Shown piece after piece: positions 23,717 to 58,200 of a stretch of DNA of 64,000 nt. Under the pieces are notes generated by a model, which worked only from the letters and a program-made list of their open reading frames with translations, did no database searches and was not told the origin of the DNA. This stretch comes from Diphasiastrum complanatum (Eukaryota; Streptophyta; Lycopodiopsida; Lycopodiales; Lycopodiaceae), in the NCBI GenBank assembly GCA_029204225.1, contig CM055095.1:15096049-15160048 (forward strand). The letters run 5' to 3'. Each line of letters opens with the position of its first letter. The stretch's first letter is position 1. The position numbers and the translations under genes are program-made.

Positions 23717-24398
23717 TGTTAAAAATTCACAATTCTAGCTTGACTAGTTTTGGTCATATGACTTGTAAATAGTTAGATGGTCATGATGTGGCTTGTCACA
23801 CGTGCCAAATAGCATAGGATTCCATTCATAAGGATGTTCTCAAGTAGACCTAAGTGTTAGAACCTTTGGAATGAGTCCAAATTATGCTTAGATACAAGGG
23901 AGAAAAAATAGGAGCTATTTTTGGTAATTTTTGCATTGTTGAGGGATCTCCAAGATTCCAACCCTAACTTGGTAGGGATGAAATATCCACCAAAATTAGC
24001 ATTAGGGATAGGTTTAGGGCTACTCATACCTGCCCAAAACCGTGATGGATCATGTATATATAGGTGATGATATCTCACCAAAATCAATCAAGCAATTTCA
24101 TGTTTTTTCTCTCATAATGGTGCAATTGCTCTCTATGTTCATAATTGTTTGAGTACTTGTGATTACTAATGATTATAGGATTGAATGTAGGTCTGGTGTA
24201 CAGTACTCAGACTGTGGGAGGCCGTACTTTCACACGTGTGAAGCCTTCTTCAAGGATTTGGGCCATTTAGTGAGGTTCAAGCATAGATTTTTGATGGATT
24301 TTGATGGTTCAACTTGTGCTAATCTTATGAAATCATAATCTATTGTTTCCCTCATCATTTCAAGTGTTTTAGGATCCTTATTTGCTATAATTTTTACA
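23717..24398 (+). repeat. 5' LTR of copia 2
   Basis: TG...CA-bounded 682 bp, followed directly by the primer-binding site TGGTATCAGATCC. Matches 34447-35128. Confidence 0.95.
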
Positions 24399-24978
24399 TG
24401 GTATCAGATCCTAAAGGCTGAAATGAGCTAAATCCTTGGTTTTCATTTAATTTGATCACAATTTTTGATCTAAATCTTGTGTAGATTGGATCTTAGCATC
24501 TAGTATTAATTCTAGAACTCAAAGTGAGTCAAATACATTGGAGATTGGTGTTGCGTGACTTCATTTGCAGGTGTTTAGGTGTCTAAAACCAGAGGCAAAG
24601 TTGAATTCAATTCACATTACCAAGATAGCAAGTTTTGCTTGCTCCAAGCATTGATTTCTAAGCGAGTTTTGGAGGTGATTTCATAGAGGAGGCTTTTTAG
24701 CATTCAAGGAGAGGGAAGATCAGAGTTTTGGGGACTCTTCAAGGCTATTCTAAGGTGTAGTAGGCACCTCCTAAAGTGATTTAGATTCAGTCCAACCATT
24801 GCTTGACTTATGCACCAAATTAGATCAATTTTTCATCAATTTTGATCATTTTTTGCTTGTGATTGGATAGTAGATTGTGTTGCATCCTCATTAAGTTCCA
24901 TTCTTTTACAAGTGATTTTAGGAAGTATATTAGGTTGCTGAAATTCACTCTTGATCAGATCATTTGGAAGCTTTAATG

Positions 24979-25628
24979 TGTGAAAGATTCAACTAGTTTC
25001 ATCACATTTTGCAATATTTCCATATTTGGCATATTGAGGCTAGAACTTGTTTTAGACTTAGAGGTTGACTTTTCAAAGTTAATTAGTCTAAATTTCATTT
25101 GAATAAACACTTTTTGAAAGTGTGGGAAAGATAGAATGCGAGTTTGAGTAGATTCAATTTGAATAAGTTGGGTACATTGAATCTAGACCCAAAATTGGTA
25201 GGGTTAGCATTTTGGTGGGAAAGCCAAGTGGCCAAATAGGGTTTGGACCTGCTATAAAAAAATGTAACTCGTGGAGAGAGTCATCTTCTCTCTTCTCTAT
25301 CTCATTTCATGCTTATACATGGTTCTCTTGGGTTCTACTATCCATTGGTGCACTATCTTGGTGATTGCTTGCAATTCTATGTGTAGAATGATCTATATTT
25401 GCTATTTTTGGATCCACACGTGTGAAATACAGTAGCTTGCTGGTTTTGTACGGACAGCAATAGTACATAATCATTTCATTCAAGTTTGATCAAGTTCTAT
25501 TAGTATTTGCATCTCAAATTGTGTGTAGATGCTGATTTTTCTACAGTGGTGAAATTGGTAGTGTATTTCTCTTTCTAACCAAAGATCATTCAAGTAGATT
25601 GGATCTTAAGGATCTGAAATCTTTCACA
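24979..25628 (+). repeat. 5' LTR of copia 1
   Basis: 650 bp, TG...CA, followed at once by the primer site TGGTATCAGAGC. A TATA-like CTATAAAAAAA lies near 25253. Confidence 0.95.
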
Positions 25629-26200
25629 TGGTATCAGAGCTTGTGTTTCAGGTTATGAAGGAGGAAATCAGATCTATCAATGATTTGGTGAAGATATCAA
25701 GTCTAGAGCATGCTAGAGAGGATTCTACACCAAAATCAGATTTTTTGCTTTTGTAGATTGGATCTTTTGTAGATCAAAACACTAAATAGGTCAATATACT
25801 TGTTCAATTCCGTTTTTTGAATTCACATGCTGGATTTGGCCGATGTTTGGATCATTGGTTCAGCCTAAGTGGTGGCTTATAGATTGCATATCAAATTTTC
25901 AACATTTGCATGTAGATTTGGAATAGTCAATTTTTTGTGATTTTGTCAAAACCCTAATTTTGATTGGATCTCTAGATAGTGAGGTTGCTGGACTTCATTT
26001 GAGTGTGTTTCAATCTTAGGAAGTGGCAAAAGTCATTAGATTGAGGATAGATCATAGGTTGATCAAGATTCCATGATTCTATGTGTTGATTTGCTTGGAT
26101 AAGTGCTAGAAGAGAATTTGTGAGATAGTTTCAAATCTTGGTGATTTCTTTTGAAAGCATTTGTTGTTGTTCAAAGGAGTGCTTTGTGCATTGAAACAGG

Positions 26201-28650
26201 TTGAAAGAGGAGAAGATCAGGTCATTTCTACATGGAACCTCAATTGGAGTCATGTTGGAAGCAAATGATAGGCTTACCTCAAGTAACTATTCATTATGGA
26301 AAGTGAGGATGAATGATGTTTTGGATATTGTTGTAGGTTTGGAGGAGAGACCAGCAACACAACAAGATCAATTGAGGTATGACAAGAGGGCCAAGAAGGC
26401 TCTACACATGATAAAGATGAATGTTACCAATAAACTTCTCAAGGAAGTTGGTAAGTGCACATCATCTTTGGAAGCTTGGAATTCATTGAAGAAGCTTTAT
26501 GAATCCAAGTCTACTTCTAGAGTGTTGACTCTAAGAAGACAAATCTTTCTTGTTTGCAAAATAATGAAGAAAGTCCAAGTACTTTTGTTTTGAGAATGAA
26601 AGCATTGAATGATGAGTTAGCTTGCATAGATGAAAGCATTAAGGAAGGAGAGCTTATTCAAGTGATTCTTAATGGCTTGTTGGGTGCTCATGCTAACATT
26701 GTTCAAAGTATTGCTATTCAAAAGACTTTGCCAAGTTTGATGGATCTTCAATAGATCTTGATCAATGAGGAATATAGGCTTCAAGCAAGAGGTGGATCTA
26801 CATCGACACTTCAAGAGGATGCTATGTTCACAAAGGGCAAATTCAAGGGCAAAACCAAAAGCAAGTGGTCTAAAGGGCAAGATCAAGTGGATGCTTCTTC
26901 AAGTGGCAAAAAGAAGGATAGATCAAAGCTCAAGTGCTACTATTGTGGCATCAAAGGACACTTTGCAAGTGAGTGCTACAAGAAGAAGAGAGATCGAGGA
27001 GACAAGCAAGGTAATCTTACTCTTGATGAGGATGGTTTGGATGTGCAAGATGCAAATGATGATGATTTTGTGATGTCTTCATGTATGCTTGCTAATGATG
27101 GAGATCTAGATCCTTGGTGGATTGATAGTGGAGCAAGTTCACACATGACCTTTCACAAAGAGTACTTCACTTCTTTGTTGGCATATGGAGATGACAAGAG
27201 GGTGATCTACACGGCCAATGATGGTGAGTGTGCAATCAAAGGGATTGGCACAATTCCTATTTCTCTCTCTACAAATAGGAATGTTCATTTGGATGATGTC
27301 TTGTTTATTCCATCTATTACCAAGAATTTGCTTAGTGTGAGTCAAATGCTAAGTAAGGGCCTCAAGGTGGAGTTTGATGGAGATGCTTGTTTGATCAAAA
27401 GGAAGGATGTCTTGATTGGAAAAGGTAAAAGACAAGGGAAGTTGTTCAAACTTGATGCTTGTGTTATTGCTAACCAAGTTGGATGTGTTGCAAGGGAGCA
27501 AATTTCTATTCAAGAGGTTTGGCACAAAAGGATGGGACACCTCAACTCCAAGTCATTGGAGGTAATGGCAAGGAAGAAGGTTGTGATTGGTCTTCCAAGT
27601 TCCTTAAGTAATGACAAGCATGTTTGTGAGTCTTGTGCTTTGTCTAAGCCACATAGACTACCTTATACTAGATCTATTTCTAGATCTACAAAGCCTTTTC
27701 AACTTGTACATTCGGATATTCATGGATTTACTACAATTAGCAATAGTGGAGCTAAGATGTATGTAACATTCATTGATGATTTTAGTAGATTTTGTTGGAT
27801 CTATCTACTAAAGAGCAAGGATGAAGTGTATGATGTCTTTGTCAAGTTCAAGAATGCAAGGGAGAACCAATTCTTCACAAAGATCAAGTGCTTGAGAGGT
27901 GACAATGGTGGTGAGTACATATCTAACAAGTTCAAGGCCTTTTGTGATGAGCATGGGATCAAGAGGGAGTATACAACATCAAGGACCCCACAACAAAATG
28001 GAGTGGCTGAAAGGAAGAATAGAACTTTATGTGAAAGTGCTAAAGCTATGAGGTTAAGTGCTAATCTTGACAAACCATTTTGGGATCAAGCTTTGTTGTG
28101 TGCCAATTTCTTGTGCAATAGGTGGCCGAGTGCTATTTTGGATGGAAGGACACCTTTTGAGATGCTATTCAAGAGGAGGCCGAGTGTCAACAAGAACCTT
28201 TGGATGCACATGCTATGTCTCTTGATGATAGGACCAAGGAGTATCCATCTTCAAGAAGAGGTATTTTTGTTGGATATAGTGAGGTGAGTAAAGCATACAA
28301 GGTTTACATTCCTTCTACTAACAAAGTGATTGTTGGTAGAGATGTCATTTTTGATGAGGGAAACATTCCAAAGGTGTCTTCAAGCATGATTGATGGTAAA
28401 GTAGATGGATCTAACATTCTTGATGTTGATGAGAAGGATCCTACTTTGGATGGTGGTGATGATGAACCTTCATCAAGTCAAAAGCCAAGGAGAACATCAA
28501 GAGAAAGACAAGTACCTTCAAGGCTCACATATGATCAAAAGGGTAAGCAAGTAGTTTCTGGAAATTATGTTGCTTTCCTAACCTCTTTGGATGATCCTAC
28601 AAGTGTAGATCAAGCAAGGAAAGAAGAGGAGTGGATCCAAGCAATGGATC
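26201..28650 (+). pseudogene. copia 1 gag, protease and integrase
   Basis: Gag starts near 26201 (SSNYSLWKVRMNDVL) and shifts frame near 26560, with a stop at 26752. The 26758 frame holds zinc knuckle CYYCGIKGHFASEC, protease WWIDSGASSHM, and integrase H-H-C-C (HKRMGHLNSKS, CESCALSKPH) and catalytic segments (DDFSRFCWIY, GDNGGEYIS, TPQQNGVAERKNRTL). A frameshift near 28197 leads to GIFVGYSEVSKAYKVYIP, then GSRLTY-type linker sequence. It stops matching copia near 28685, just where RT should begin. Confidence 0.9.
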
Positions 28651-29144
28651 TTGAGTATCAAGCTCTTATGAAGAGTGGAACATCTTTTGGAAGATCTTCT
28701 TGTGTACATGGAGCTATGCAAGTGGATGGATGTTATCTTGCTGTAAAATCAAATATTGGATCTGGAAAACAAAGTTTGTTCAATGACTTTGATGATCAAG
28801 TTGAAGATCAAGAAATTGATCTCAAAGCGCTTCAACTAGTCAAAAGGGAAGTTGGCAATTTGGAGCTAGTCAAGAGCATCAAAGGAGAGGTAATTGGCAA
28901 AGGTGTTATGGATATGTTTTTGCAGCATATTGAAGACTCAAGTAAGGTCAAAGGAGCAGCAATGAAGTGTTGTTCAAGTTTACTTTACTTTTTCTATCTC
29001 ATGTTTGAGCAATTTCATGTGGATGTGTGCAAATTGTCAAGATATGGTAAAACTAGCTACATTGGTGAGCATTGTTTTGATGTTGGATTTGTACTAGCAT
29101 TCTTGGCTGATTTTGCTGATGGAAATGAAGCTATTGGAGGTTAA
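28200..29144 (+). CDS. Chimeric ORF: copia linker continuing into unrelated sequence
   Basis: The first 160 residues are copia integrase C-terminus and linker (VGYSEVSKAYKVY, RLTYDQKGKQ, EEEWIQAMDLEYQALMKSG). At about 28685, where RT should start, the protein changes to sequence with no copia match (YLAVKSNIG, QEIDLKALQLVKREVGN, CCSSLLYFFYLMF). The frame stays open for a further 150 residues. The foreign part is not recognised. It may be a captured host fragment or filler; persistence of the open frame may be chance or recent capture. Confidence 0.5.
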   Translation: MDAHAMSLDDRTKEYPSSRRGIFVGYSEVSKAYKVYIPSTNKVIVGRDVIFDEGNIPKVSSSMIDGKVDGSNILDVDEKDPTLDGGDDEPSSSQKPRRTSRERQVPSRLTYDQKGKQVVSGNYVAFLTSLDDPTSVDQARKEEEWIQAMDLEYQALMKSGTSFGRSSCVHGAMQVDGCYLAVKSNIGSGKQSLFNDFDDQVEDQEIDLKALQLVKREVGNLELVKSIKGEVIGKGVMDMFLQHIEDSSKVKGAAMKCCSSLLYFFYLMFEQFHVDVCKLSRYGKTSYIGEHCFDVGFVLAFLADFADGNEAIGG

Positions 29145-29159
29145 TTATGTCACTCATCC

Positions 29160-29951
29160 ATGGCTAAGTTCTCAAGTGTTGAGCTACTTGGTGCCAATAC
29201 TTGGAGATTGTCAGTTTTTGGTGAATTCATGGTCATTTTCTTGTGTCAAGTAGATCTTGAAGATGGACTAGTGCAAACTACTTGGTTTATGGAGTCATGT
29301 GGTGCTGGATTTGCATCATTAATGTACTCACCTACTCATGGATTTCCAAGGTCTGATGGTTTCTTGTGGCAAGATGAAGATGGAGGCTCATTCATGGAGT
29401 ATCATGGTGGATACAAGGCAACAAAGGACAAAGGAGGAGGAGACATGCAAGCAAAAGTTGATCACTCACATTTCTTGTTTGTTTGCTGTATTTTTCCAGA
29501 GAGTTCAGAGTTGGAAGCATGGTGGAATCATTTCATTTACATTCTATTTGATTCTTCATGTTCTAGTCACATTTTTACATGTAAAATTGATGTAAGAAAT
29601 AGTGAAGCATCCCAAGTGGACACTATTCTCTATATCAATTATGGTTGTTTCTATCTTGAGCATTACATGATCGTTGAAAGGAGATCTATTCTTAGGAAGA
29701 AGATCATTCTTATGATGGATCAAAGTTCTATTGTCAAAAACTATGCTAGGAGCAAGCATATTGAGATACAATATCATTTTGTGAGGGAGCGAGTCATTGC
29801 AAAGGAGGTGGAGCTTCAACATGTGTCTTCAAGGGAATGTGTAGCTGATATCTTCACCAAAGCATTGGGAAAAGACTTGTTCATGAAGCATAGGACCTCA
29901 CTTGGAGTATTATCAAAGTCTATGCTAAAACTAGTTGAAGAGGGAGTGTGA
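29160..29951 (+). CDS. Chimeric ORF: unrelated N-terminus joined to copia RNase H tail
   Basis: About 180 unrecognised residues (MAKFSSVELLGANTWRLS, SDGFLWQDEDGGS, FPESSELEAWWNHFIYIL) precede the copia RNase H end YARSKHIEIQYHFVRERV, RECVADIFTKALG and LGVLSKSML. It ends at the PPT and 3' LTR. The switch lies near 29700. Together with the previous ORF it defines the inserted block of about 1 kb. Confidence 0.5.
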   Translation: MAKFSSVELLGANTWRLSVFGEFMVIFLCQVDLEDGLVQTTWFMESCGAGFASLMYSPTHGFPRSDGFLWQDEDGGSFMEYHGGYKATKDKGGGDMQAKVDHSHFLFVCCIFPESSELEAWWNHFIYILFDSSCSSHIFTCKIDVRNSEASQVDTILYINYGCFYLEHYMIVERRSILRKKIILMMDQSSIVKNYARSKHIEIQYHFVRERVIAKEVELQHVSSRECVADIFTKALGKDLFMKHRTSLGVLSKSMLKLVEEGV

Positions 29952-30597
29952 AAGATTCAACTAGTTTCATCACATTTTGCAATATTTCCATATTTGGCAT
30001 ATTGAGGCCAAAACTTGTTTTAGACTTAGAGATTGACTTTTCAAAGTTCATTAGTCTAAATTTCATTTGAATAAACACTTTTTGAAAGTGTGGGAAAGAT
30101 AGAATGCGAGTTTGAGTAGATTCAATTTGAATAAGTTGGGTACATTGGATCTAGACCCAAAATTGGTAGGGTTAGCATTTTGGTGGGAAAGCCAAGTGGC
30201 CAAATAGGGTTTGGACCTGTTATAAAAGGATTTAACTCGTGGAGAGAGTCATCTTCTCTCTTCTCTATCTCATTTCATGCTTATACATGGTTCTCTTGGG
30301 TTCTACTATCCATTGGTGCACTATCTTGGTGATTGCTTGCAATTCTATGTGTAGAATGATCTATATTTGCTATTTTTGGATCCACACGTGTGAAATACAG
30401 TAGCTTGCTGGTTTTGTACGGACAGCAACAGTACATAATCATTTCATTCAAGCTTGATCAAGTTCTATTAGTGTTTGCATCTCAAATTGTGTGTAGATGC
30501 TGATTTTTTCTACGTTGGTGAAATTGGTAGTGTATTTCTCTTTCTAACCAAAGATCATTCAAGTAGATTGGATCTTAAGGATCTGAAATCTTTCACA
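29947..30597 (+). repeat. 3' LTR of copia 1
   Basis: 651 bp copy of the 5' LTR, ending CTTTCACA and followed by target duplication taatg. Confidence 0.95.
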
Positions 30598-30829
30598 TAA
30601 TGTTCTTTATAGAAAGAGGGTCAATTCTACTAGTATTGTCTACTTCAATCAAGCAAGTGCATTGTTTCTAGTATTCTATGATTTGATTTTGTTAGAGATC
30701 ATTCTTAGATCTTTATAGGAAGTCTATTACTGATCTTTTCAGGTTCCTAAGAAGTGGGATAAGGTAGACCTTCAATCAAATCAATAGAAGTAACCTTCAT
30801 TTGTGTCAAGTCCTTGATTAGGAGACTAG

Positions 30830-33800
30830 ATGGCATCTATAAATGCATATCTTTTGGATACTAATGAAAGGCTCAACAAAACTAACTATTCCATATGGAA
30901 AGTTAGAATGGAATCCATCATGATCATGCAAGATCTGATGGAAATTGTAAATGGTAAGGAGGGTGAACCTATTCATCCTCAAGAAAAAGCCAAATACATC
31001 AAGAGGTGCAATGTTGCACTACATTGCATAAAAATGAATGTTGCAAATGAACTCTTAAGAGAGGTAGGAGATTGCACTTCAGCTCAAGATGCTTGGGAGA
31101 CTTTGCAAAAGGTCTATGAATCCAAGAACCAAACTAGAATATTAGCTTTGAAGAATCAAATCTATAGAAGCTATCAAAAGAAAGGAGAGAGTGCACATAC
31201 TTTTGTCCTAAGAGTAAAGGAATTGAACAAAGAGCTAGCCTTTATAGGTGATCCTATCAAGGATGAAGAGCTTGCTCAACTCATATTGAATGGACTAAGC
31301 TTTGAATTTGACAATTTGGTTCAGGGATATGCAATTATGGGTAAGCTACCCATACTTGAAGAACTCCAAGGCACACTCATGGCCGAGGAATCAAGAAGGA
31401 GCCAAATGCAAGAGAGGATGGATAGGCTTTCCATCCAAGGTGGAGATGACCAAGTTCTCTTCACCAAAGGCAAAGACAAGTCCAAAGGCAAAGGATCAAC
31501 ATTCAAGAAGTCTACAAAGCTTGAGGATCAAGAAGGACCCTCAAAGACATCTCCATCAACCACCAAAGTCAAGAAGGACAAATCAAAGGTGAAGTGCTAC
31601 TATTGTAGCAAGATGGGGCATTATGCCTCGGAATGCTTCAAGAGGAAGCAAGATCAAAGCCAAGCCAACATGAGCAAAGAGGAGGAGGAGGAGAGTTCAC
31701 ATGAGGACTCTCTCATGATGTCCATATTTTTTTCAACAAGCTTCAAAGGAGAAGATCCTTGGTGGATTGACTCGGGTGCTAGTTCACACATGACTAGTAA
31801 AAGGGAGTTTTTCTCTTCTCTCTTATCTTATGATGGACCTATAAAGTCTATCTATACAGCAAATGATGAAGCTTGTAAGATTGAAGGAGTTGGTAGCATT
31901 CCCCTTTGCTTAGGATCTTCCAAAAAGATCAACATTGAAGGTGTTTTGTACATTCCTACAATAACAAAGAATCTACTAAGTGTTGGCCAAATGGTAGACA
32001 ATGGTTTCAATGTTGACTTTGCTTCAAATGAATGTTTCATCAAGAAGAAGAGTAAGATAGTGGCTAAGGGCACTAGACTTGGCAAACTTTATAAGTTGGA
32101 TGCATTTGTGGATACTAATGTTGTCATGTTGGCCGAGAAGAGAAAGATATCTACATTTACATTATGGCACAAAAGACTTGGACATGTCAACTCGGGTTCC
32201 ATGGAGGCTATGATCAAGGAGGAGTATGCTTTAGGCCTACCAAGGTCTATTGGGAAGGAAGACAAGGTTTGTGAAGCTTGTGATTTATCCAAGGCACATA
32301 AGAACTCCATCACAAAGTCATCTCATCCTCTTGAACTCATACACTCGGATGTGCACATTGCTAGCACCAAATCTAATGGAGGTTCATCCATGTTTTTAAC
32401 CTTCATTGATGACTACTCAAGATATTGTTGGGTGTTCTTACTTTCCTTCAAGTCTCAAGTATTTGATACTTTTGTAAAGTTCAAGTTGTTTGTGGAAAAA
32501 CATCATAATCATAGCATCAAGATTCTTAGAAGTGACAATGGTGGAGAATTCATCTCCAATGAGTTCAAGGCCTTTTGTGAGGAGGAAGGGATCAAGAAAG
32601 AGACTTCTTGTCCTTACACTCCTCAACAAAATGCAGTTGCTGAAAGAAGGAATAGAACATTATGTGAATGTTCTAAGGTTTTAAGATTAGATGCTTGTTT
32701 GCCCAAATCCTTTGGGGTGAGTCTCTTGTATGTGCAAACTACTTGATGAATAGGGTGTCTTGCAAAGCAATTGAAGGCAAAACTCCTTATGAGGTGTTGT
32801 ATGGAAAGAAGCCCACTCTTAATCACTTGAAAGTTTTTGGGTGTATATGTTATGTGCATGTGCCATTGGAAACAAGAACCAAGGAGGATCCATCTTCCAC
32901 AAGAGGGATCATGCTTGGATATGCAAGCTCAAGCAAGGGCTACAAAGTCTATCTCCCATCCTTGAACAAATTTGTTTTTTCAAGGGATGTCATCTTTGAT
33001 GAACATCATATGCATATGCTTGAAGAAGGCTCAAGTGCTCCAACAATCAAGAAGAAGATGGCCGAGGAGCAAGATCTTGGTTTTGAAGAGGAGCTCATGG
33101 AGGAGCAAGCACCAAACCCACCTATCACACCAAGGAGATCTTCAAGGGCAAAAGTGGAGCCATCAAGGCTCACATATCAAGGCAAAGGACAGCAAGTTGA
33201 GTGTATCTCATCCACTTCTTATGCTTTATCTAGTTTTGAAGAACCATCTAATGTTGAAGACGCATTGAACTCCAAAGAATGGTATAAAGCTATGTTGGAT
33301 GAGTATGATGCTTTGATTGAGAATTAAACTTGGTTGCTTGTTGAGAGCCCTCAAAGGAATGTAATAGGATGCAAGTGGGTCTTCAAGCTTAAGTTGAATG
33401 CAAATGGGAGTGTTAACAAACATAAAGCAAGATTAGTTGCAAAAGGTTATGCTCAAGAGAGAGGGATAGACTACGAGGAAACTTTTGCACCCGTAGCCAA
33501 GATGGTCACAATAAGGCTAATCATTGCACTTGCATCACATTTTGGATGGATTCTATGTCAAATGGATGTCTCTAATGCTTTCTTGAATGATTTTTTGGAA
33601 GAGGATATCTATATGGAGCAGCCACAAGGGTTCATCAAGCATGGAATGGAGAACAAAGTATGCTGGAAGTATGCAAAAGTGTTGACACACCAATGGAGCA
33701 AGATGTAAAAGTGCCAAATGAAGATGATGAAAGATCCTTCATGGACATCACTTTGTTTGGGAAACTTATAGGTTCCTTAATGTGGATCACTATAACTAGA

Positions 33801-34432
33801 CCAGATCTTAGCTTTAGTGTATGTAGGTTGAGCCAATCCATGCAAAAGCCATTGAATATCCATTGGAAAAAGGCTAAGAGGATTCTAAGATACATCTCGG
33901 GTACATTGGATTTTGGGATTCTATATAGAGGAGATGTGATTAACCTTCATGCATTTAGTGATTCAGATTTTGCAGGGGACAAGAGGGATAGGAAATCAAC
34001 AAGTGCCTATTCAACTTTCATAGGAGAAGGTGTGATTTCATGGCTTTCAAAAAACAAGAAACTATATCTCTATCTTCAACTGAGGCCGAGTACAAAGCTT
34101 TGGCAACCACTACAAAGGAGGTACTTTGGATCAAGAGATTATTGGTGGAACTAAAGATCATGGATTCAGAGGAGGCACCAATCATCTACAATGACAATAT
34201 ATCATCCCAACACCTTGCATCTAACCCAATCTTCCATGCAAGATCTAAGCACATTGAGATATGCCATCACTTTGTGAGAGAAATGGTGCAAGCCAAGGAG
34301 ATTGCTTTGGAGCATGTTCCAAGCAATGAATGTGTAGCTGATCTACTTACTAAACCACTTCAAAAGACACCTTTTATGAAGTTCAGATCATCACTTGGAG
34401 TGATTAGTAAAACAATGATTGAACCAAGCTAG
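30830..34432 (+). pseudogene. copia 2 gag-pol, RT core deleted
   Basis: Domain order is Gag (from MASINAYLLDTNERL at 30830), zinc knuckle CYYCSKMGHYASEC, protease WWIDSGASSHM, and integrase (HKRLGHVNSGS, DDYSRYCWVF, SDNGGEF, YTPQQNAVAERRNRTL). RT follows ([30 protein letters not shown]) and then RNase H (SDSDFAGDKRDRKSTS, ISLSSTEAEYKALA, ARSKHIEI). Breaks: a frameshift near 32705, stop at 33325, and a deletion near 33660 that joins upstream RT to the RNase H approach and removes the YVDD catalytic region. The element cannot supply its own RT. Confidence 0.9.
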
Positions 34433-34446
34433 ATAGTGAGGATGAG

Positions 34447-35128
34447 TGTTAAAAATTCACCATTCTAGCTTGACTTGTTTTGGTCGTATGACCTGTAAAT
34501 AGTTAGATGGTCATGATGTGGCTTGTCACACGTGCCAAATAGCATAGGATTCCATTCATAAGGATGTTCTCAAGTAGACCTAAGTGTTAGAACCTTTGGA
34601 ATGAGTCCAAATTATGCTTAGATACAAGGGAGAAAAAATAGGAGCTATTTTTGGTAGTTTTTGCATTGTTGAGGGACCTCCAAGATTCCAACCCTAACTT
34701 GGTAGGGATGAAATATCCACCAAAATTAGCATTAGGGATAGGTTTAGGGCTACTCATACCTGTCCAAAACCGTGATGGATCATGTATATATAGGTGATGA
34801 TATCTCACCAAAATCAATCAAGCAATTTCATGTTTTTTCTCTCATAATGGTGCAATTGCTCTCTATGTTCATAATTGTTTGAGTACTTGTGATTACTAAT
34901 GATTATAGGATTGAATGTAGGTCTGGTGTATAGTACTCAGACTGTGGGTGGCCGTACTTTCACACGTGTGAAGTCTTCTTCAAGGATTTGGGCCATTTAG
35001 TGAGGTTCAAGCATAGATTTTTGATGGATTTTGATGGTTCAACTTGTGCTAATCTTATGAAATCATAATCTATTGTTTCCCTCATCATTTCAAGTGTTTT
35101 AGAATCCTTATTTGCTGTAATTTTTACA
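34447..35128 (+). repeat. 3' LTR of copia 2
   Basis: Starts just after a purine-rich tract (GTGAGGATGAG) and ends TTTTTACA, then the target duplication tttgc. Confidence 0.95.
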
Positions 35129-35339
35129 TTTGCTCCATAATCTCTCTTCCTATCCTCATCTTAGGGGTTTTCCCTATTGGTCTTTACACCTACATCCATC
35201 AAGACCCAGTAACCATGGACTTCCTCAATGAATGAATCTGAGATTAGGATGATTAGTAGCAAGAAGAGTTGGAAGCACCAAACCTCCCCAGAGTTGCAGC
35301 CGCACAGATTGAAGCAGGAGCAGGACCAGCAACAATGGA

Positions 35340-48515: not shown

Positions 48516-49016
48516 CTACACATCACAAAAAATAACAAAAGTCAATAAACAATAAGTAAAGTACGTTAGGGGATATTAAAATTCAAAATGGGCCCTTTGT
48601 CAAGATGTTGTTTTTGACTTCGCACGCTTTCAACGCTTATGTGTCCCAATGAATGGTGTCCATATGTGACAAACTGTAACAGTGGTTGACGAACGGAAAT
48701 TGTATTCAACTTTTTCGGCCAAATTTTCATGAATTTAAAATATCCCGTCGGGCAAAACAAGCAATTGTGATTGGGCCACAGTTACTGCCCGAATACTCTT
48801 ATGTTGCCCGTCATTATACACTCGAGGTTGATTTGACGTCAATAGTCGTAAACTATAGTTAACTAATCCTTGTAGTTTAGGAACTTCTTGTCATTCATAG
48901 ATATACCTCTCATTTTCTTCATTCTATCTCTTATTTTGGATTGTCATTCTTAGGTTTACCTCTCAATCTCTACATTCTCTCCGTTCTCAGCCTGCACACA
49001 TGTATTTTTGACTAAT

Positions 49017-50215
49017 GGCTACACATAAGCGTAGACCAAGAGGAACCATTGATGCAATCAACATTTGTAATGAAAAAAATGCAAAAGATCAATGGGTATC
49101 AAGAATATATTAAAATAATCAATGGATCTTGATGCATCCCTCTGCAAAAGGCTCATTTCGGAAAAGAAAAACATCGGATAACATATATAGAAGCTCTTGG
49201 AAAGGCAGAATAATGGATTTCAAAGTATCACCTGCCGGTCAATCTATCACGAAAATTTTAGTTCAGCATGCTTATCTTCACAATGAGCTGAACATTCATG
49301 ATTGAAATCCAAATGATAGAAGAAAATGCAATTGTAAGTTTTCAGATTTAATTTTTTTAGAGTTAGCATTTTCTTTAAATTATATTTTTCTTGTGATGTT
49401 TTTGTTGGTTTTGCATATTTGTATCTATCAAATTTCGTTGAATGGAAAATAGTTCAATCGATTGCAGGAATAATCGATGTCATACATTTGGATATCTTTA
49501 TTTTACAATGTAAAGGTCGTTATCCAAAATCACTTTTAGAGTCAAGAGTTTTCTTTTATGATCAACATCTATTTTCCTGATAAAAATGGTTTAGTTGGTA
49601 GATTAAGACCATATCGTCTACCAGATTTTTCGAGTGAGGAATGGATTTCTCCTAATGCAGCAATTTCAGAAAGTTTTTGATCTAGGCTATATATTGATAT
49701 TCAGAGTATATTAAAACGTAGCACTGGATCAAAGAATAATAGATTAAGTTGGTATCTACATTTTTTTAATTTTTGTTGATTTTTTTTTAAAAATGCAATG
49801 TTCGAAGAACAAAAACAATGTTTATTTGTAAGGACTTGAGTCCTGAAATAATCGTCGAGTTGTTGGATGATGGTTGAGATACAAAACAAAATCAGCAAGT
49901 TGAGTGCAGAGTATGTTACTCATCAATGACATTTACATATCACATCGAAAAACATATGCTCACTTTGCTGTTGTATTATAGAAGATGGATTAAATGCAAA
50001 AATATTTGAAAGCCACTTGATCAAGATTTTGGTATAAACCCTCAAGAGCAACTTCAGATAACAGTGAAAAGAAATGACAACATTCTTGTAATGGTTGAGG
50101 TCGAGGAAGATTTTGGTGTCAATCACATTCGATCAAAACTAGACATGTTGCAATTCGATCTACCTCAGTACTATCAATTTCGATTGAATGGTGTAAATGT
50201 ACATTATGCCATATG
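49017..50215 (+). pseudogene. Unrecognised broken coding-like region
   Basis: Plus-strand segments look protein-like across stops: MATHKRRPRGTIDAINI near 49017, GRIMDFKVSPAGQSITKILV near 49205, and later QITVKRNDNILVMVEVEEDF to DLPQYYQFRLNGVNVHYAI near 50055-50215. A CxxC...H...H spacing (CRVCYSSMTFTYHIEKH) near 49910 may be finger-like. No family is identified. It lies beside transposon sequences and may be part of one. Confidence 0.3.
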
Positions 50216-50329
50216 AAAATATTCTTTTTTTTCTATTTCTAAGTGAATCAGTTTCAAAAAATATATTGACTAGAACAATTTCTCTTGTGCAGGTAAGAGT
50301 AAGGCATGAAGATTTGGAATTTGATCAAA

Positions 50330-50640
50330 TCTAGATGGGATGACACATGGGAGGCATGATGAGCCACCACAAATCGGAGATCTGAGGTACAAGATGCCAC
50401 TTCTTTTAGAAGTTCATTACTAACATTCATTTTTGGGCAATGTAATGCTAGTCTAGCTCTCCTTTTGTACCTCACTAGATCTTGCCCTCCTTGAGGTTCT
50501 TCTTCCTCTCCTATGACAAGATCATACATATCTTGGAGCACAAGTAGTGACTCCATTCTTACTTTCCAAGTTGAATAATTATTAGAATTTAGCCTTTCAC
50601 TAGCCTCAAGAAGATAGGCTCCAATTGAACCCATTATATC
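50330..50640 (-). pseudogene. copia gag fragment
   Basis: The minus strand reads MGSIGAYLLEASERLNSNNY, STWKVRMESLLVLQDM and KMNVSNELLKEVASCTS, the same N-terminal Gag segment as copia 2. No flanking LTRs were seen. Confidence 0.8.
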
Positions 50641-50879
50641 TAGTAACAAGTAAAACAAATGTACTATTTAAATGCTCTCTCTTATCTTTTTCTCAGAATT
50701 TAGATATAAAATGCAAAGATATTGGAACATCCATCAAAATTGAAGATCCATAGATTATGAACAATGGAATTTTGTATTATGTAATAAATTTTTTTGTATA
50801 CATTATTTTTGAAAATATATGAACCACTTTTTCTATGAGACTCTTTCATTTTTATGATCTTCATTTCCATGGTGCAAAA

Positions 50880-50990
50880 CACAATGTAATTGCAATTGGA
50901 TAATATGAGTTTTCGATAACAAGATTCATTGTCTCTTGTAGGAAATGCATTATCTCCATTGGGGAGATCTTCGGTCACTTGAACTCCAGG
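50880..50990 (-). repeat. Partial duplicate of the Ulp1-like terminal exon
   Basis: Closely resembles 51515-51599, the last exon of the H3/Ulp1-like gene, sharing CTCCATTGGGGAGA and surrounding sequence. Homology ends just before CACTAC at 50994. Confidence 0.65.
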
Positions 50991-51440
50991 GACCACTACA
51001 ATCAGATATCGAATCGACGCTTGCCCTTGTTGAAGTCTCAAATATATTGGTTGTATTTTTGGTCTTCATTGCCTTGGTCTGTATTGTCCTTGTCTTGGCA
51101 TATTTGGATATGTTTAGAAGATGATCTGATCAAAGTTTTGCTGCAACAAATCTAAGTGAACTTATGTCACATGTTTGGATTGGTTGTGGCAAAAGTTAAA
51201 TTAGATCATCTTTCTGAACTTATCCAAAAAAAACCATGGTAAAGACAAGGCAGACCAAGGCTATAAAAAATATACATGTCGGAAAATCGTCGAAATTGAA
51301 GATGAATGAATAATAACCTAAATTAATAACAAGAAAACAAACAAGTAAGAACAACCATAGAAAACTGTAAATATATTTCTATAAAATTTTTCTGTACATG
51401 TGCCTCATCCACATAAAGTGCGACCAACTTTTTATTAGTA

Positions 51441-52335
51441 TCAACTATCTATGTTCTCTAAATCCATTTTTTCAGTTGGAAGTAGCTTGGGTGGAGAACA
51501 CTCTGCCACTGCAACTAGATATGAATTTTCGATCACAAGCTTTATGGTCTCCTGCCTGAAGTGCATTACCTCCATTGGGGAGACCTTCGGGCATTGAAAC
51601 TGAAAAAAACAAAAACACAATTAAATGTTATTAATCAAAGATTAGTTATTAGGAGTTTGATTATGAAAAAAAGAACAAAAACACAATTAAATGGTATTAA
51701 TCGAAGATTACCTCTTTCAGATTAGGAAGTTCATCTTGTAGTGCAAGCCAATTGAAAAAGTGTTTGGCATTGCATACCGTATACTAACCACAGCTGGCAG
51801 AATCAACTTGCTGGGAGGACTGCAGTATCCAATATAAACGAAAGTTAGTAACAAAATTTTAACATTATGAAATATTCGATCAACGCACAGGAGGTTATAA
51901 TAAAATCTACAACGGAAACAAGCGCGCGTCGAATCGATATCCAAAAAATATTGTTTGAATATTGGATCAGTGTGCACGATATGAAAAAAAATCAAACAAT
52001 AACTACAAGGGCGCGTCGAATCGATATTGATAAATTTTTACCTCTGCATCAACCATTTTCAGTTTCGTATATGCTATTGCACGTGGTACTGGAAAGAGTT
52101 CTAGCATTTTCTGGATATGGCTCCTGGCAATTTTGTGTGTGTGTGTGTGTGTGTAATAGAGTTTATTTTTAAACAAACTGGATTACACACACCCTCATCA
52201 TTGACATATAAGGACAACACATATAAGCTCCAATGATCACTGCAATAAAAAAACAATAAATTTATGAGAATCAATGTGAAATCAAAATTCATATGAAAAA
52301 TTCAACTTAATAAAATCTGAAAAAATACACTTACT
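51441..52335 (-). pseudogene. Ulp1/C48 cysteine-protease-like domain
   Basis: Shows the family order: a region before His (LGILILVLPYIT), NDHWSLYVL with catalytic His, a helix SHIQKMLELFPVPRAI, QxxDSxxCG with oxyanion Gln and nucleophile Cys, NAKHFFNWLALQDELPNL, and a C-terminal helix FRQETIKLVIE. Family members cleave SUMO or related modifiers and occur in host genes and in some plant transposons. A TAG two codons after Cys and loss of the Asp segment argue against activity. Confidence 0.7.
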
Positions 52336-52979
52336 TTGTTATGTATGGGAGCACGAGAATTAGAATCCCCAGTCTGACGTATTGGAGCATAACATTGTGC
52401 AGATTTTTGAAATCAGGAAAATTAAATGTAGCCATGAATTGAAGCGGAAACAATGCTACATTTGTAAACAATGGGGTCTGGAAAAATTCCATCCAGTGCT
52501 GAATTGCCCCACCTCCTACATTGTCCCCTAGCATTTTACCCCTACTTTCTAATTCACCTGTATCTAATTTAGAAAGGGGAAGACCAACATTGGTCTTCAG
52601 CATCTTAAAATTGTATCGAGGACCTAAAGCTTTAAGATATGTGTTTAACAATTGCTCATACTGTACATATTGAGGAGTATTTACAAAGGCAAGTGCAAGG
52701 GGTGAAGGAAGTAATACAGATAAACCACAAAAAGAATTGTCATTCAAAATTGATTCTAACTTTACATTTACAAAATCATCTAAATCATTTCCTAGAACAG
52801 GAGGTGGAGAACTAATATTTGTGGAAGTAGGAGGAGACTGAGATTTTGAAGGAGGAGGAGATTTATTAGAAGAGGAAGATTTAGCAGGAGACGATAAAGA
52901 TGGAGTTCTAGGAGGAGAAGAAAGAGACTTAGGAGGAGACTGGGGAGGAGATTGTCTAGCAGATAGAATCTAATGGGAA

Positions 52980-53286
52980 ATTTCACTTGGAAATCCTCAT
53001 ATGCAGTGTGCAGCGCCTCTATTGCCGTTACAGTCCATCTCACATCTGCAGATAGACTTCTTGTAACCTGTTTGATGGATCTCTTTATGTGAGCTTGCAG
53101 AATCAGAAGATTATTGGTCTTCTGTAGCTTCCGAATATCCTTGAGCCAGGGTGGGTCTCTTCGTTTGCCCCTTGGCCTAGGAGGAGGTGGTGGTGGACGA
53201 GGAGGTGGTGGTGCATTTCCTTCTCCCCCTCATGTGATTGGGATTCCACCAGGGTGGACTCGTGCTGTTTGCTTAGTCCGCGCCAT
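52980..53286 (-). CDS. Histone H3-like region of the fusion
   Basis: One frame with a single TGA at codon 19. Relative to canonical H3, the tail keeps R2, K4, R8 and G12-G13. K9, S10 and K14 are replaced by Val, His and Ile. The fold part aligns without gaps from alphaN to mid alpha2. L1 has canonical-H3 length, but RW replaces RF, as in many CenH3 proteins. L2 and alpha3 are absent, so a normal H3-H4 dimer is unlikely. Confidence 0.75.
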
Positions 53287-53513
53287 TAGTATCCAATATC
53301 GAATCAGCGTGCGAAGAAGGAGAACTCAGGATCAGAAGTCAGGTTGAGCTGTCAAACTGATACCTGAACTTAACCAAACCGATACCTGGTAGTGGATGGG
53401 AGCGCACAAGTAAAAGCGAAATGTAGGTAGGTTGTTTCGACCTCGCTGAATCGATACCGCATGGAAGTAGAGAACGATAAGAACTTTAAGCAAAAAATTT
53501 CAACGTCGTCCAT

Positions 53514-53528
53514 CTGTATATATAGAGA
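53514..53528 (-). promoter_or_regulatory. TATA box candidate for the H3/Ulp1-like gene
   Basis: Minus-strand TCTCTATATATACAG, about 230 bp upstream of ATG 53286. It implies a 5' leader of about 200 nt. It faces away from the plus-strand TATAAATA at 54683. Confidence 0.5.
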
Positions 53529-54456
53529 AAATTCGAAATGATTGCATACGTGGTGGTTTGGATGTCCGAGGCTAAGATTACACTGATAATTACTTCGAGA
53601 TATTCAGAGGCTTGTCAATCAAATCAAACTAAATATCCATCTTTTATCAAAATGATTAGTCGATAATAATGACCACAATTAATCTCTACAAAAGTATGGT
53701 CACATCTACAATTAATTCTACAAAAGTATGGTCACATCTACAATTTATTGCTGAAATTGACAAGGTTAAGCTATAAATATCTAACCTTTTTTGATATCCA
53801 ATCATTATAATTTCGAAAAATTCCAATGGCCATTATTTCACCCAATAGCAAGTCGACATGCATATATTGCATTGTAAATCAGAGGGGCTATTCTCACGCG
53901 CTGAACTGATATTGGACGAAATATGAACGATCAGAGCTTGACTTGATAGATTCTGCATATCTTTGGACAATATGAAGAGTCTACCGAATCAAGATTTGAT
54001 CATGCATAATAGGGTCCAATAATTTCGACAATTTCAAAAATCTCTTTATCCTGCAATAGCGATTCGACTCACGCAGTCCAAGTGGAAAATAACTTTCTTC
54101 TACCAGGTGCACTGATTCGATATCTGAGACACACTGAAAATATATTGGAACACATTATGAACCATCAAAGCTTGTTTCGACAGATTTTTTTAAGCTTTGG
54201 ATGTATGAGGAGTCTCCCGAAGCAAGCTTTAATTATGCGCGTCTATTTGATCTGTTCCTATGAAGCACTTGTCCTCTCGCGTGGAATCGATTTCGGCCAT
54301 TTCAAAATGCTCCGCCTTGTGAAAATGTTCTGAATGAACATTATCTCAAAAGGAAAAATTTCGTCTTTACGGTGCTTAAATAGGACGAGAGACTGTAATA
54401 ATTGCCCTCTACATGTTTTTCAATGATGTCCATTTAATATTTGTTTATCATTTGTT

Positions 54457-54600
54457 TAATGATGATTCGGTGAGGCTAGTGATAGACTATTTAATGTATT
54501 CCGACACAGGTACAAAGTGTAGGGTCAGGGCTAATGATGATTCATAGAATCTAGTGATAGACTATTTAATGTATTCCGGTGTAGGTACAAATTTTGTCTC
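54457..54600 (+). repeat. Tandem duplication of about 75 bp
   Basis: TAGTGATAGACTATTTAATG with its flanks occurs twice in tandem, with modest divergence. Confidence 0.75.
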
Positions 54601-54682
54601 ACTCTGATTGGTGGATAAATATAGGCTGTGCTCCTGAATTCATTATTTGACAAATGTATGCCTGTGATCAACAGGAATAGGC

Positions 54683-54690
54683 TATAAATA
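54683..54690 (+). promoter_or_regulatory. TATA box candidate for a plus-strand unit
   Basis: TATAAATA in the context GGCTATAAATATGAGC, about 700 bp before the exon-like frame at 55364. Together with the opposite TATA at 53514-53528 it outlines a divergent promoter region. Confidence 0.4.
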
Positions 54691-55363
54691 TGAGCACTAC
54701 TTTTTATATTTCGATTCCGTGATCTTTTATTCTGAACTCTCTCATCATTTTGTTTTCTTTCTTTCTCGCGATATCGAATCGACTCGCGCCTTCACATACA
54801 ATGCACGGCCGGATTCATTCAAGCGCACTGAAGCAATATCAACCTCTTCTGACGTGTGCTCACGGAAAATTTCAGTCTCGTCCTAACGATATCGGATCAA
54901 CGCACACACTGTTGTTCAGTCCTCGACCAAAATTATTCAGTCACGTTAAACCGATATCAGGTTCAATATGGCTAGTTCCTCCATGTCCCCAGATAACAAA
55001 CTTCTGGATTTTTTGAATGCTAGTCACATTTCATCTGAGAAATTAGAGTATTTTTTGAGTATTTTTTTTGCTCTCTTCGATATCGATAAGCTAGTTATGA
55101 AAATCATTATAATTTAATTTTTTATCTTGATAATTTTTTTCAGATTATTAGTACTCCTGTTCAAGATATAGATAGTTTTTGTTTCGTTCACTTTCAGGAC
55201 CTTGTGCATTCCCAACCATCCTCTAAACATAAACACAATAGAAAGTACTCTAACCTGCATGACCATTTCAGAAGAAATATATATTGTGGTATCCACAAAA
55301 GAATATGTCGCCTTCTAATCAAAGGAATGGCTTTTGTCTTTTAAATATCTATTGAAATTCCAG

Positions 55364-55930
55364 ATGATGAGTCTGTTGAATCTTCAACTGTTCCATTGAT
55401 CGAAGCATCTACATCTACTCCAGTTGATGTAGATGATGCAGATACTGATATAAGGGTTGAAGCTGAAGCATCCATGACTTCAAATTATCAAAAAACTCTC
55501 CCTCGTTCTATAATCCTCTCCGATTCTCTTCCATCTACATCTCATGTTAATCAATTAATTCTACTCGATGTTCCCTTATATTTTATAAGTAATGAAAGCT
55601 ATATTTCATTTAATGATATAGAAGATACTTTGAATTTGAAAGAGGATGAAATCCTCTCGATTTTTGCACAAAATTTATTTGAATTTTTTGACATTGTTGA
55701 TTACACATATGATGACCTTGAAAGTGAGATAAAGATGGCAATTGGAAATCTGGCAATGAGGCCTTGGAGGCCATGATTGAAAAATCTAAAGCCTATGAAA
55801 AAACTTTGCCTACAGAGGAGGAATTTTTGGAATTCTAAAAAAATATCCCCCAAGGCCTAGATATATCCCCTCCGAAAATGCAGAGGCCATTGGAGGACAT
55901 GACATTAGTAGAGCAAACATCGTCGAATAC
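55364..55930 (+). pseudogene. Unrecognised acidic ORF, probably transposon-encoded
   Basis: After an acceptor-like TGAAATTCCAG, a frame reads PDDESVESSTVPLIEAS, LPRSIILSDSLPSTSHVN and DDLESEIKMAIGNLAM. A one-base change near 55755 continues it as AMIEKSKAYEKTLPTEEEFLE and NIPQGLDISPPKMQRPLE. Acidic and helical; no family recognised. Its place between the divergent promoter and the CACTA transposase suggests a transposon product. Confidence 0.35.
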
Positions 55931-56199
55931 GATGATTATGATCTGGTACTTAGATATCATATTGGTATTGATATTGTTCAGTTTTCTTATTTCAAACACT
56001 GTGTTAAAGTATGAGTTTGCAGTGTTATGTATCATTCTAAATTTATTTATTTTACTCGTTTACAGGATGCTATTGAAATAGATGCCCTATTGGTTCGATT
56101 CATGGTATTAAATCTTAGGTGTATTCACAAATTTTCTTTCAATTTGAACATTAGACTCACAATTAAGTTGGTTTTTTTGTCTCAATGTAGGGCCCCAAA

Positions 56200-58200
56200 C
56201 TAGTGGCTAATGCACATCCCGTTGTGGTGAGTATTTGCAAGCACATCACTCACAACATCTACGAAAGATGGTTTATGAGGGCCACACTCTCGATACCTTC
56301 CACCTGATCACCCTATGCATGATGGGCTTGTTGGTCAACATCCCCACTCCATGAAGGTACAATACATATTTGGGCCAATTAATGTACATGTCATTTATTG
56401 ATTTTATAGTTACTCTCTTTAGATTTCTTCTAATGATAATCTGCATTAAATGTGTGTGCTTGTTTGTTAATATTGTAGGCAAGTGATTGGCTTCAAATTT
56501 GGAGGATCTAGGGTGACTCCCTCCTAGTATGAAGAGGTTATCAATATTTCATGAACTTTCATATTGGAGAAATTGTTGATAAACCATATTTTGGACCGGA
56601 TGCACATATTCAAGAATGTCGGGAGCACGATTTGGGAGCACTTGACCGGGTCAAAAGATAAAAAAGATGCACGAGATGACTTAAAAGAAGTGGAAAAGAT
56701 GGCTGATTTATGGCCACAAATGGTGGGGATTTCAATTGTCCTCCCAAAGGCTCCATGGAACTTCTCGAGGAGAGAAGAGATGATTTTAAAGAAGGCAATA
56801 GCCTCATTTCGAACTCCGACATGACACATGTGATGCCTAAAGGGTGCCTTCACTAGGGACAACAAGCTAAGTGGACTAAAGTCTCATGACTAGCATAAAT
56901 TTTTACAGGTTGGCATGGCATGTTTTTTGATGTTGCTTTCACCTTAACATTGTGGATTACATTTTATATCATATCTTGTAATTTCATGATGATCTCATTG
57001 CACATATATGTATCTCAATGACCAGATTGTTTTTGTGCATGCCATTTGTGTTTCGCTTTTGGTGTTGAGAGGCTTTTTGATAGAGGAGTTAAGGAGTGCA
57101 ATCTACAAAGTCAGTGGTTTGGCAAGGTACGGCGAATGCGACTCACATCATTTTTTCTTGGTATGATTCAAGATGATGATCTTACTAATGCATATGTCAT
57201 TGTTGTTTACTTTTCTTATGACGATACATTTCATCCAAGGAGAAACTGATGGCATTCATTGAGGAGGCAAGAAAAAGCTCCATCGAGGCAATGTGTTTGA
57301 TCAAGAAGCACTTTCCCACATCCATTCTCACCATTCAAATGTATGATGAGGTGGCCATTGCAGGTACATCACCTACTTTTGTCAATTGCCTATTCTTAGT
57401 CCATCCTAGCCTATTGCAATTGTGGTAATTGCAATGTTCTCTCACTAATATTGATCCATATTTTTTAACTAGGCACTGTCCATAGACGTTGGATGTTTTT
57501 CTTGAAACGATTCATGAAAACATTGAAAGGCTTCGTAAGACAAAGAGCAAGGCCTAAAGGATGGCTAGTGCAAGAGTCCATGGTTTATATCACGGAGTTT
57601 CTTGGTCATAGCGATCCTTCTATTCCTCGTCTTTGGGATAAGAAGGATTATGAGTGTGTTGTTGGGAAAGTTCCTCAAGGAAAAGGAGCGATCATGAGAA
57701 TGAGTAAGTCCTTCAAGGAGAAGGTAAATAAGTTTTGCATTCTTAATAGTGAAGAAATACAAAAGTGGATTTTGCTATACGAAGAGGTCAAGGCTCGTAG
57801 ACAAACCGCTTGAGCCACTTTCAGGAGAGGGCATAGAAGACAGCCATATCCACCTAACCTCGCCCTTCTACCCAAGGACATGACGCTTGATTGGCTATGT
57901 GATGTCCTTAGAGAAGCCTTGGCGAATAGCTAGGAAGTAACAAAGAGAGAGCGGGAATTCGCAAGGGGGTGCGATTTACATGTAAGATATGATGATCATC
58001 ATTCACATGCTAATTAAACCATTTGTACATGCAATTTTGTACATTTTTGTTGTATCCCTAACAGATTTAGTTCTATTTCGTTTAGTACAAGAAATACAAT
58101 GCATTGTGGATGCATGCATGGACGACATTTTCATACGGAGCACTTTGACAAAAATAGAAACATGTACGATTGTACAGTCATGGCAAATTTTATTGTAAGA
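56200..58200 (+). pseudogene. CACTA (En/Spm) TNP2-type transposase, C-terminal part
   Basis: Exon-like frames: 56564-56824 (EKLLINHILDRMHIFKNVGS, TIWEHLTGSKDKKDARDDL, LPKAPWNFSRREE), then GAFTRDNKLSGLKSHD. Next are 57046-57140 (GVERLFDRGVKECNLQSQWF) and 57493-57813 (MFFLKRFMKTLKGFVRQRARP, GWLVQESMVYITEFLGHSDP, DUF4218). Further fragments such as PRPSTQGHD-like and KIETCTIVQS run to 58200. Stops (for example at 56527 and 56821) break it. The N-terminal catalytic part is not recognised here. Confidence 0.85.

Follow-up and report, generated by a model that had tools for sequence, protein, structure and literature searches.

A broken transposon gene that joins a histone to a protease was identified on the minus strand (53286-51441) of the window, that is, the whole 64 000 nucleotide stretch of Diphasiastrum complanatum DNA analysed here. 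The gene reads as an H3-like tail, a histone fold, a basic and Ser/Pro-rich linker and an Ulp1-type protease. The initial annotation had reported such a fusion from this copy; the observation is confirmed and reaches further than first stated. It is almost certain that the architecture is that of an H3-type histone with a tail and a complete fold, followed by a basic Ser/Pro linker and a C-terminal Ulp1/SENP-type cysteine protease.

Structure of the H3-Ulp1 gene

The features named in the initial annotation (MARTKQTAR, the Pro-rich and basic part, the H3 segment, the linker, DHW and QxxDSxxCG, here QQVDSASCG) were all found where it had placed them, on the minus strand (Table 1). The gene starts with MARTKQTAR at 53286, is interrupted by a TGA and continues into the Pro-rich and basic stretch. 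The TGA, a frame change and a TAG are all present, and the copy is broken, as had been claimed. The frame change lies at the border of a loss of ∼285 bp relative to most sibling copies; this deletion adjoins the alphaN-alpha1-L1-alpha2 segment and accounts for the absence of L2-alpha3 from the window.

Table 1. Positions of the H3-Ulp1 gene, its parts and the neighbouring features in the window
Feature	Position	Strand	Remarks
DNA transposon copy, part common to siblings	48564..56086	.	Left terminus at 48564; homology ends at 56086, right end missing
Copia-type gag piece	50313..50703	-	Inserted in the window copy
Partial second copy of last exon	50870..50983	-	Many siblings have one too
Ten sites of the 18 bp motif (≤3 mismatches)	51005..54905	.	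All outside predicted exons
Last exon	51441..51599	-	
Exon 3, Gln and Cys (QQVDSASCG)	51712..51819	-	Then TAG in the window copy; Trp at the TAG position in 20/21 rows
Exon 2, catalytic His (DHW) and TG repeat	52042..52239	-	
Exon 1 (tail, shortened fold, linker, first protease part)	52335..53286	-	TGA after tail; frame change within
Protease region, N-terminal part	52335..52798	-	Last residues LPYIT at GT donor
Ser/Pro-rich linker	52799..52969	-	
H3-type alphaN-alpha1-L1-alpha2 segment	52981..53157	-	Ends ∼52981; Pfam, PDB, siblings
H3-like N-terminus MARTKQTARV	53257..53286	-	Also seen in siblings
Gene B (MASSSMS..), broken	54968..56086	+	Head to head with the H3-Ulp1 gene

The exon boundaries were compared in an alignment of 21 rows, comprising 20 sibling copies and the window. 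GT was found in 20/21, 19/21 and 16/21 rows at the three donors, and AG in 18/21 and 15/21 rows at two acceptors. The Ulp1-like domain had been described as split; its DHW and QQVDSASCG motifs are present, but the DHW piece and the piece that follows it (SHIQ..) probably form a single exon containing the TG repeat, because the two are continuous in family 2 (see below). The TG repeat itself (52133-52154) apparently belongs to protease exon 2, and the reading frame is offset by it from copy to copy. Downstream of the gene, a 203 bp imperfect palindrome (72%) occupies 51065-51267, and siblings match it in inverted form.

Sibling copies in the genome

The genome containing the window (1.74 Gb, 5176 contigs) was searched with the DNA of 51441-53286, and 40 places were scored among 1982 candidates. 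The protease side was matched at 83-92% identity in the 39 places other than the window, in some of them in part, and 32 of the 39 also matched the H3 side. The initial annotation had asked if the H3-like and Ulp1-like parts are ever adjacent in other copies; they were found together in 33 of the 40 scored places, window included, and in two further families. Most scored places contain ∼285 bp extra between the H3 and the protease parts, and this stretch, absent from the window, represents the remainder of the histone fold and a basic stretch.

Twenty siblings were fetched, which represent ∼17 independent copies, as the pairs L013/L014, L020/L021 and L011/L016 are near-identical and are probably each one insertion present on two contigs, or recent duplicates. 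In 18 of these 20 siblings alpha2 continues into L2-alpha3; the exceptions to a regular histone part were L010 (without alphaN), L017 (an internal loss) and L018 (without the histone part). Since the siblings carry L2-alpha3 and match the Pfam Histone model over nearly its full length, the window copy carries a deletion, and family 1, as the window and its siblings are termed, encodes a complete histone fold. The alphaN-alpha1-L1-alpha2 segment first described is present in the window, but it is not a natural truncation.

A fully intact copy was not seen among those read. The suggestion that the gene is borne by a transposon was supported. The alternative offered alongside it, domestication by the host, found no support, the copies seen being multiple and decayed.

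Further families with the same order of parts

The genome was also searched with an Arabidopsis CENH3 sequence, which gave 150 scored H3-like places among 5403 candidates. It matters for annotation that just 13 of these scored like canonical H3 (E ∼1e-28). The other 137 were divergent (E between 1.3e-18 and 4.5e-14), and their frames were often long, reaching 527 amino acids. Five places from this search were read (L034, L035, L036, L037 and L038), and two of them represent further, divergent families with the same histone-protease order: L034 (family 2) and L037 (family 3).

L034 has a stop-free frame of 527 amino acids which begins MARTKQTTRPKS.. and contains the full fold, a basic linker and the first protease part; HHW and then SSQQVDSFSCGWY come next. 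L034 was considered as an intact gene and rejected, as exon 1 is open but a stop lies ahead of the Cys exon. L037 has the same order, with GHW and SPQQNDSFNCGWY; the MARTK start is absent from the frame read and a stop lies at the end of the exon 1 frame. When a 432-residue query from L034 was used to search the genome, 97 places were scored among 8917 candidates, and 28 of the 97 were covered by a single match running from residue 40 or earlier to residue 400 or later of the 432; the 28 include L034 itself and some near-duplicates, and the last residues of the query are intron read-through.

The remaining three places (L035, L036 and L038) belong to a fourth H3-like family, which is more H3-like, ends in LARRLRRERN and occurs in several places. 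Long Pro-rich or other N-terminal stretches were observed in this family. No protease was recognised by eye near these histones within the 3 kb read. The fourth family may be another transposon, or a family of H3-variant pseudogenes.

Identity of the histone and protease parts

The H3-type piece that follows the TGA in the window matched Pfam Histone with E=2.9e-9, and against PDB all of the 60 matches listed, of 170, were H3 or CENP-A type by name. Single siblings matched nearly the whole Pfam model (L012, 6.2e-21; L020, 7.7e-16), and the values for the other families were 5.4e-25 (L034) and 3.5e-25 (L037). All 60 PDB matches listed for L012 were H3-type by name, and H4 scored far below H3 against the histone part. 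By these matches the histone part is assigned an H3-type fold with alphaN, alpha1, L1, alpha2, L2 and alpha3.

A comparison of alpha1-alpha2 put CENH3 ahead by ∼3 bits, and the histone was at first called CENH3-like; this call was dropped, as CENH3 was not favoured over H3 once alpha3 was included. Over the full fold, L012 was identical to H3.1 at 37/83 residues and to Arabidopsis CENH3 at 40/85, and L020 at 33/84 and 35/85 respectively. An unrooted tree placed families 1-3 apart from family 4, H3 and CENH3 with an ultrafast bootstrap of 88%, in a small set whose reference sequences were in part taken from search outputs. At tail position 9, H3 has Lys, whereas the alignable tails here have Val, Ile or Pro. 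The initial annotation had proposed capture of a histone H3 gene; an H3-type histone is indeed joined to the protease, but a canonical H3 gene is no more than a candidate source, the core being about equally close to H3 and CENH3.

In the protease part, the catalytic residues were retained in most of the 21 rows (His 19/21, Gln 20/21, Cys 19/21), as was the following Trp (20/21). An MN pair is invariant across families, while the Asp of VND, a candidate for the triad acid, varies. The window protease alone had no match in Pfam, and against PDB gave three chains at E≤10, namely SENP8 (two sequences) and RickCE; the best match was SENP8 (E=1.2), and the catalytic Cys was aligned in register. Peptidase_C48 was likewise without a match in a Pfam scan of family 1 copies alone. 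Against PDB, a profile built from seven family 1 copies gave SENP8 alone at E≤10, in two sequences (0.19 and 0.29), and a profile of all three families found seven chains at E≤1, all of them SENP2, SENP8 or yeast Ulp1 (best 0.017). Pfam Peptidase_C48 was matched by family 3 with 9.6e-5, above the cut-off, and by family 2 with 8.9e-4, just below it. By these matches the protease part is homologous to Peptidase_C48. The initial call of an Ulp1-type protease was no more than suggestive from the window alone (no Pfam match, PDB E=1.2) and became significant through the other families.

Selection on the histone fold

A comparison of L012 (family 1) with L034 (family 2) showed 60/96 identical residues in the fold, with pN 0.25 and pS 0.75 (saturated), and the differences at the three codon positions number 34, 18 and 51. 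The retention of 60/96 residues despite saturated synonymous sites shows that the fold has been maintained by long purifying selection between families. The protease region of the window copy was 28% identical to that of L034 (pN 0.53, pS 0.63), in a rough alignment and with the window copy a pseudogene.

Among family 1 copies, pairwise dN/dS came to 0.22-0.53 in the protease exons and 0.67 in the fold, with values of 1.03 (linker), 1.08 (last exon) and 1.24 (tail) elsewhere. Measured against the intron mutation spectrum, the observed/expected ratios for the fold were 1.31 (N) and 1.08 (S), and no constraint on the fold was visible within the family by this measure. Against this C-to-T rich spectrum, the fold and the last exon had N to S ratios of 1.21 and 1.46, and the linker and the protease ratios of 0.73 and 0.69. 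Both within-family substitution sets took in L018, which is without the histone part, and are dominated by decay of the C-to-T type. The variation within the family is read as decay after insertion, masking any constraint.

The element and its surroundings

The left terminus of the element lies at 48564 and reads CGTTAGGGGATATTA.. in the window and CA[C/T]TAGGGGATATTAGAAC in siblings. It is CACTAGGGG in L010 and CATTAGGG in L012, L028 and L024, and is degenerate in the window and L023; the termini accordingly begin with CACTA in L010, CATTA in L012, L028 and L024, CGTTA in the window and AATTA in the L023 copy. CACTA ends were not found when sought in the window alone. L028 and L023 also yielded a right terminus; in L028 the termini are inverted, with 29/35 positions matching the left end, and delimit an element of 9913 bp. 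A 3 bp target duplication was not seen in L028 (TCA/ATA) or L023, two copies that are ∼10% diverged.

In the orientation of the window, the element has plus-strand frames near its left end, then the H3-Ulp1 gene on the minus strand and gene B on the plus strand, gene B being present in 12/20 siblings and the window. L028 has a further minus-strand gene (6948-9427) in the right half of the element, and homologous DNA is present in L023. Pfam scans of the remaining genes of the element brought no match better than chance. By eye, the gene at L028:6948-9427 shares ..QGAC(D)..GISR.AY.. with L037:142-490, just upstream of the histone.

Directly past the end of the shared homology, 56211-57810 is a remnant of a Tnp2-type (CACTA) transposase (DUF4218, 3.5e-7). 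This piece was considered as the transposase of the element but is not counted as such, as one of the 20 fetched regions (L027) has such a piece and the other 19 do not. Elsewhere in the window, nested repeat pairs of the LTR-retrotransposon type were observed at 23717-35129 (98%), 24978-30598 (98%) and 21522-43737 (92% between pairs).

An 18 bp motif, GATATCGAWTCRRCGCGC, occurs at ten sites in the window with ≤3 mismatches against 0.05 expected, and a local shuffle control agrees. The 21 related copies contain 173 sites, frequently paired on opposite strands at a spacing of exactly 53 bp. They occupy the space separating the divergent genes, the intron upstream of the Cys exon and the region past the 3′ end of the H3-Ulp1 gene. 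The motif was observed to retain CpGs within an otherwise C-to-T decayed element.

Proposed role of the fusion protein and alternative explanations

Taken as a joint statement, it is somewhat probable that a decayed DNA transposon copy with an H3-histone/Ulp1 accessory gene lies in the window and that the product of this gene acts as an anti-silencing factor. The anti-silencing role by itself is put forward tentatively, as are the chromatin mimicry and the removal of SUMO suggested in the initial annotation. The accessory protein would bring deSUMOylating activity to chromatin and counter silencing there. The partner of the histone part may be H4 of the host or a chaperone of the H3 class, or the part may present its H3-like N-terminus to readers; it would thereby carry the protease onto the chromatin of the element, where silencing proteins or histones would be stripped of SUMO (or a related modifier). 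Some element-encoded protein would bind at the dense non-coding motif, and the transposon would profit by relieving its silencing. There is a precedent in the available text of two papers, in which transposon Ulp1 proteins, some of them said to cause hypomethylation via short motifs, are described (PMC13317346, PMC5735166). A bolder version, in which a plant transposon lineage makes a nucleosome-competent fusion of H3 and SUMO protease that loads on element chromatin and erases SUMO-dependent silencing, with the motif array marking the copies and the whole selected through the divergence of several families, is doubtful.

Two readings that grant the fusion a function differ from this in what the histone part does. 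A CENH3-like histone part could anchor the machinery of transposition on chromatin of a certain type (centromeric or newly assembled, for instance), with the protease adjusting SUMO-dependent factors. RWT and LLIP match plant CENH3, Arabidopsis retrotransposons that integrate into CENH3 chromatin are on record, and the loading of CENH3 via KNL2 is SUMO-dependent, both of the latter according to excerpts of the literature; but the full fold is no closer to CENH3 than to H3 and the places found are spread over many chromosomes, and targeting of this kind is considered unlikely. Alternatively, the fusion might be a precursor from which the protease releases the histone-like part; an H3-type protein made by the element would then act alone, and the substrate would not be SUMO. 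The two parts share one open frame through exon 1 in L034 and are separated by a flexible basic Ser/Pro linker, but clan CE enzymes of the Ulp1 type have mostly ubiquitin-like modifiers as substrates, and self-processing appears improbable.

The remaining readings deny the histone part a function. It could be a captured fragment carried passively, and the lack of constraint on the family 1 fold against the intron spectrum, the decay of the copies and the H3 pieces amplified by fungal hAT elements and inactivated by RIP (PMC6710886, as excerpted) are all in keeping with this. A passive fragment is nevertheless very improbable, as three families share the complete fold and the order of parts, 60/96 residues were kept at saturated synonymous sites, and the fold is better conserved than the protease region when family 1 is compared with family 2, with the caution that the 28% identity of the latter comes from a rough alignment with a pseudogene. 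That two unrelated gene remnants adjoin in the window by accident is hardly tenable: a frame change does divide the two parts there, but it is the edge of a deletion, the fold runs to the linker in one frame with a single stop in L020 and none in L034, and the same order recurs on many contigs.

Transposon-borne Ulp1 genes have long been known, and the role of the domain is called unknown in the excerpted text of a review. An Ulp1 version joined to a selected histone domain offers a definite clue, in that the protease would have an address on chromatin, and the question of why plant transposons carry SUMO proteases becomes directly testable. No paper on a histone-Ulp1 combination was found among open-access PMC papers, and within that literature this would be the first case of a histone-enzyme fusion encoded by a transposon. 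Searches for protein homologues gave 8000, 4 and 42 candidates with none past the threshold, in a database that was taken to be poor in plant proteins because few candidates shared words even for the H3 fold, and scans of viral and prokaryote contigs gave no relatives.

Comparison with known systems

The protease shares the H..Q..C order, in register, with the SENP/Ulp1 proteases SENP2, SENP8 and yeast Ulp1, but the similarity is weak, and the element protease has an invariant MN pair and an uncertain triad acid. With plant CENH3 the histone part shares RWT at L1/alpha2, LLIP in alpha1 and the MARTK start; unlike plant CENH3 it is without the L1 insertion, has KRVTIMPKD as in canonical H3 and is fused to a protease.

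Among transposons, CACTA-ULP elements are likewise DNA transposons with an Ulp1/C48 domain, and the termini here start with CACTA or CATTA. The available text on these elements describes five grapevine Cactavine families and rice Tnp2+ULP1 proteins (PMC2528002), and a Chenopodium CACTA ORF2 carrying Peptidase_C48 (PMC8978399, in part). The present element differs in that a complete H3-type histone precedes the protease on the N-terminal side; the regions fetched for 19/20 siblings contained no Tnp2 gene, and a target duplication was not seen. VANDAL elements (VANC/KIU (Kaonashi)) resemble it in having an accessory protein, in some with Ulp1, and a short motif that is dense in non-coding parts, whereas the element here has inverted termini and a histone in place of the VANC N-terminus; DUF1985 (VANC) had no match in the Pfam scans made. 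Fungal hAT elements with histone H3, as described in excerpts of PMC6710886, are similar in that a DNA transposon has amplified an H3-type coding sequence. The H3 there has stayed close to the original and was inactivated by RIP, whereas the histone described here is old, divergent and fused to a protease.
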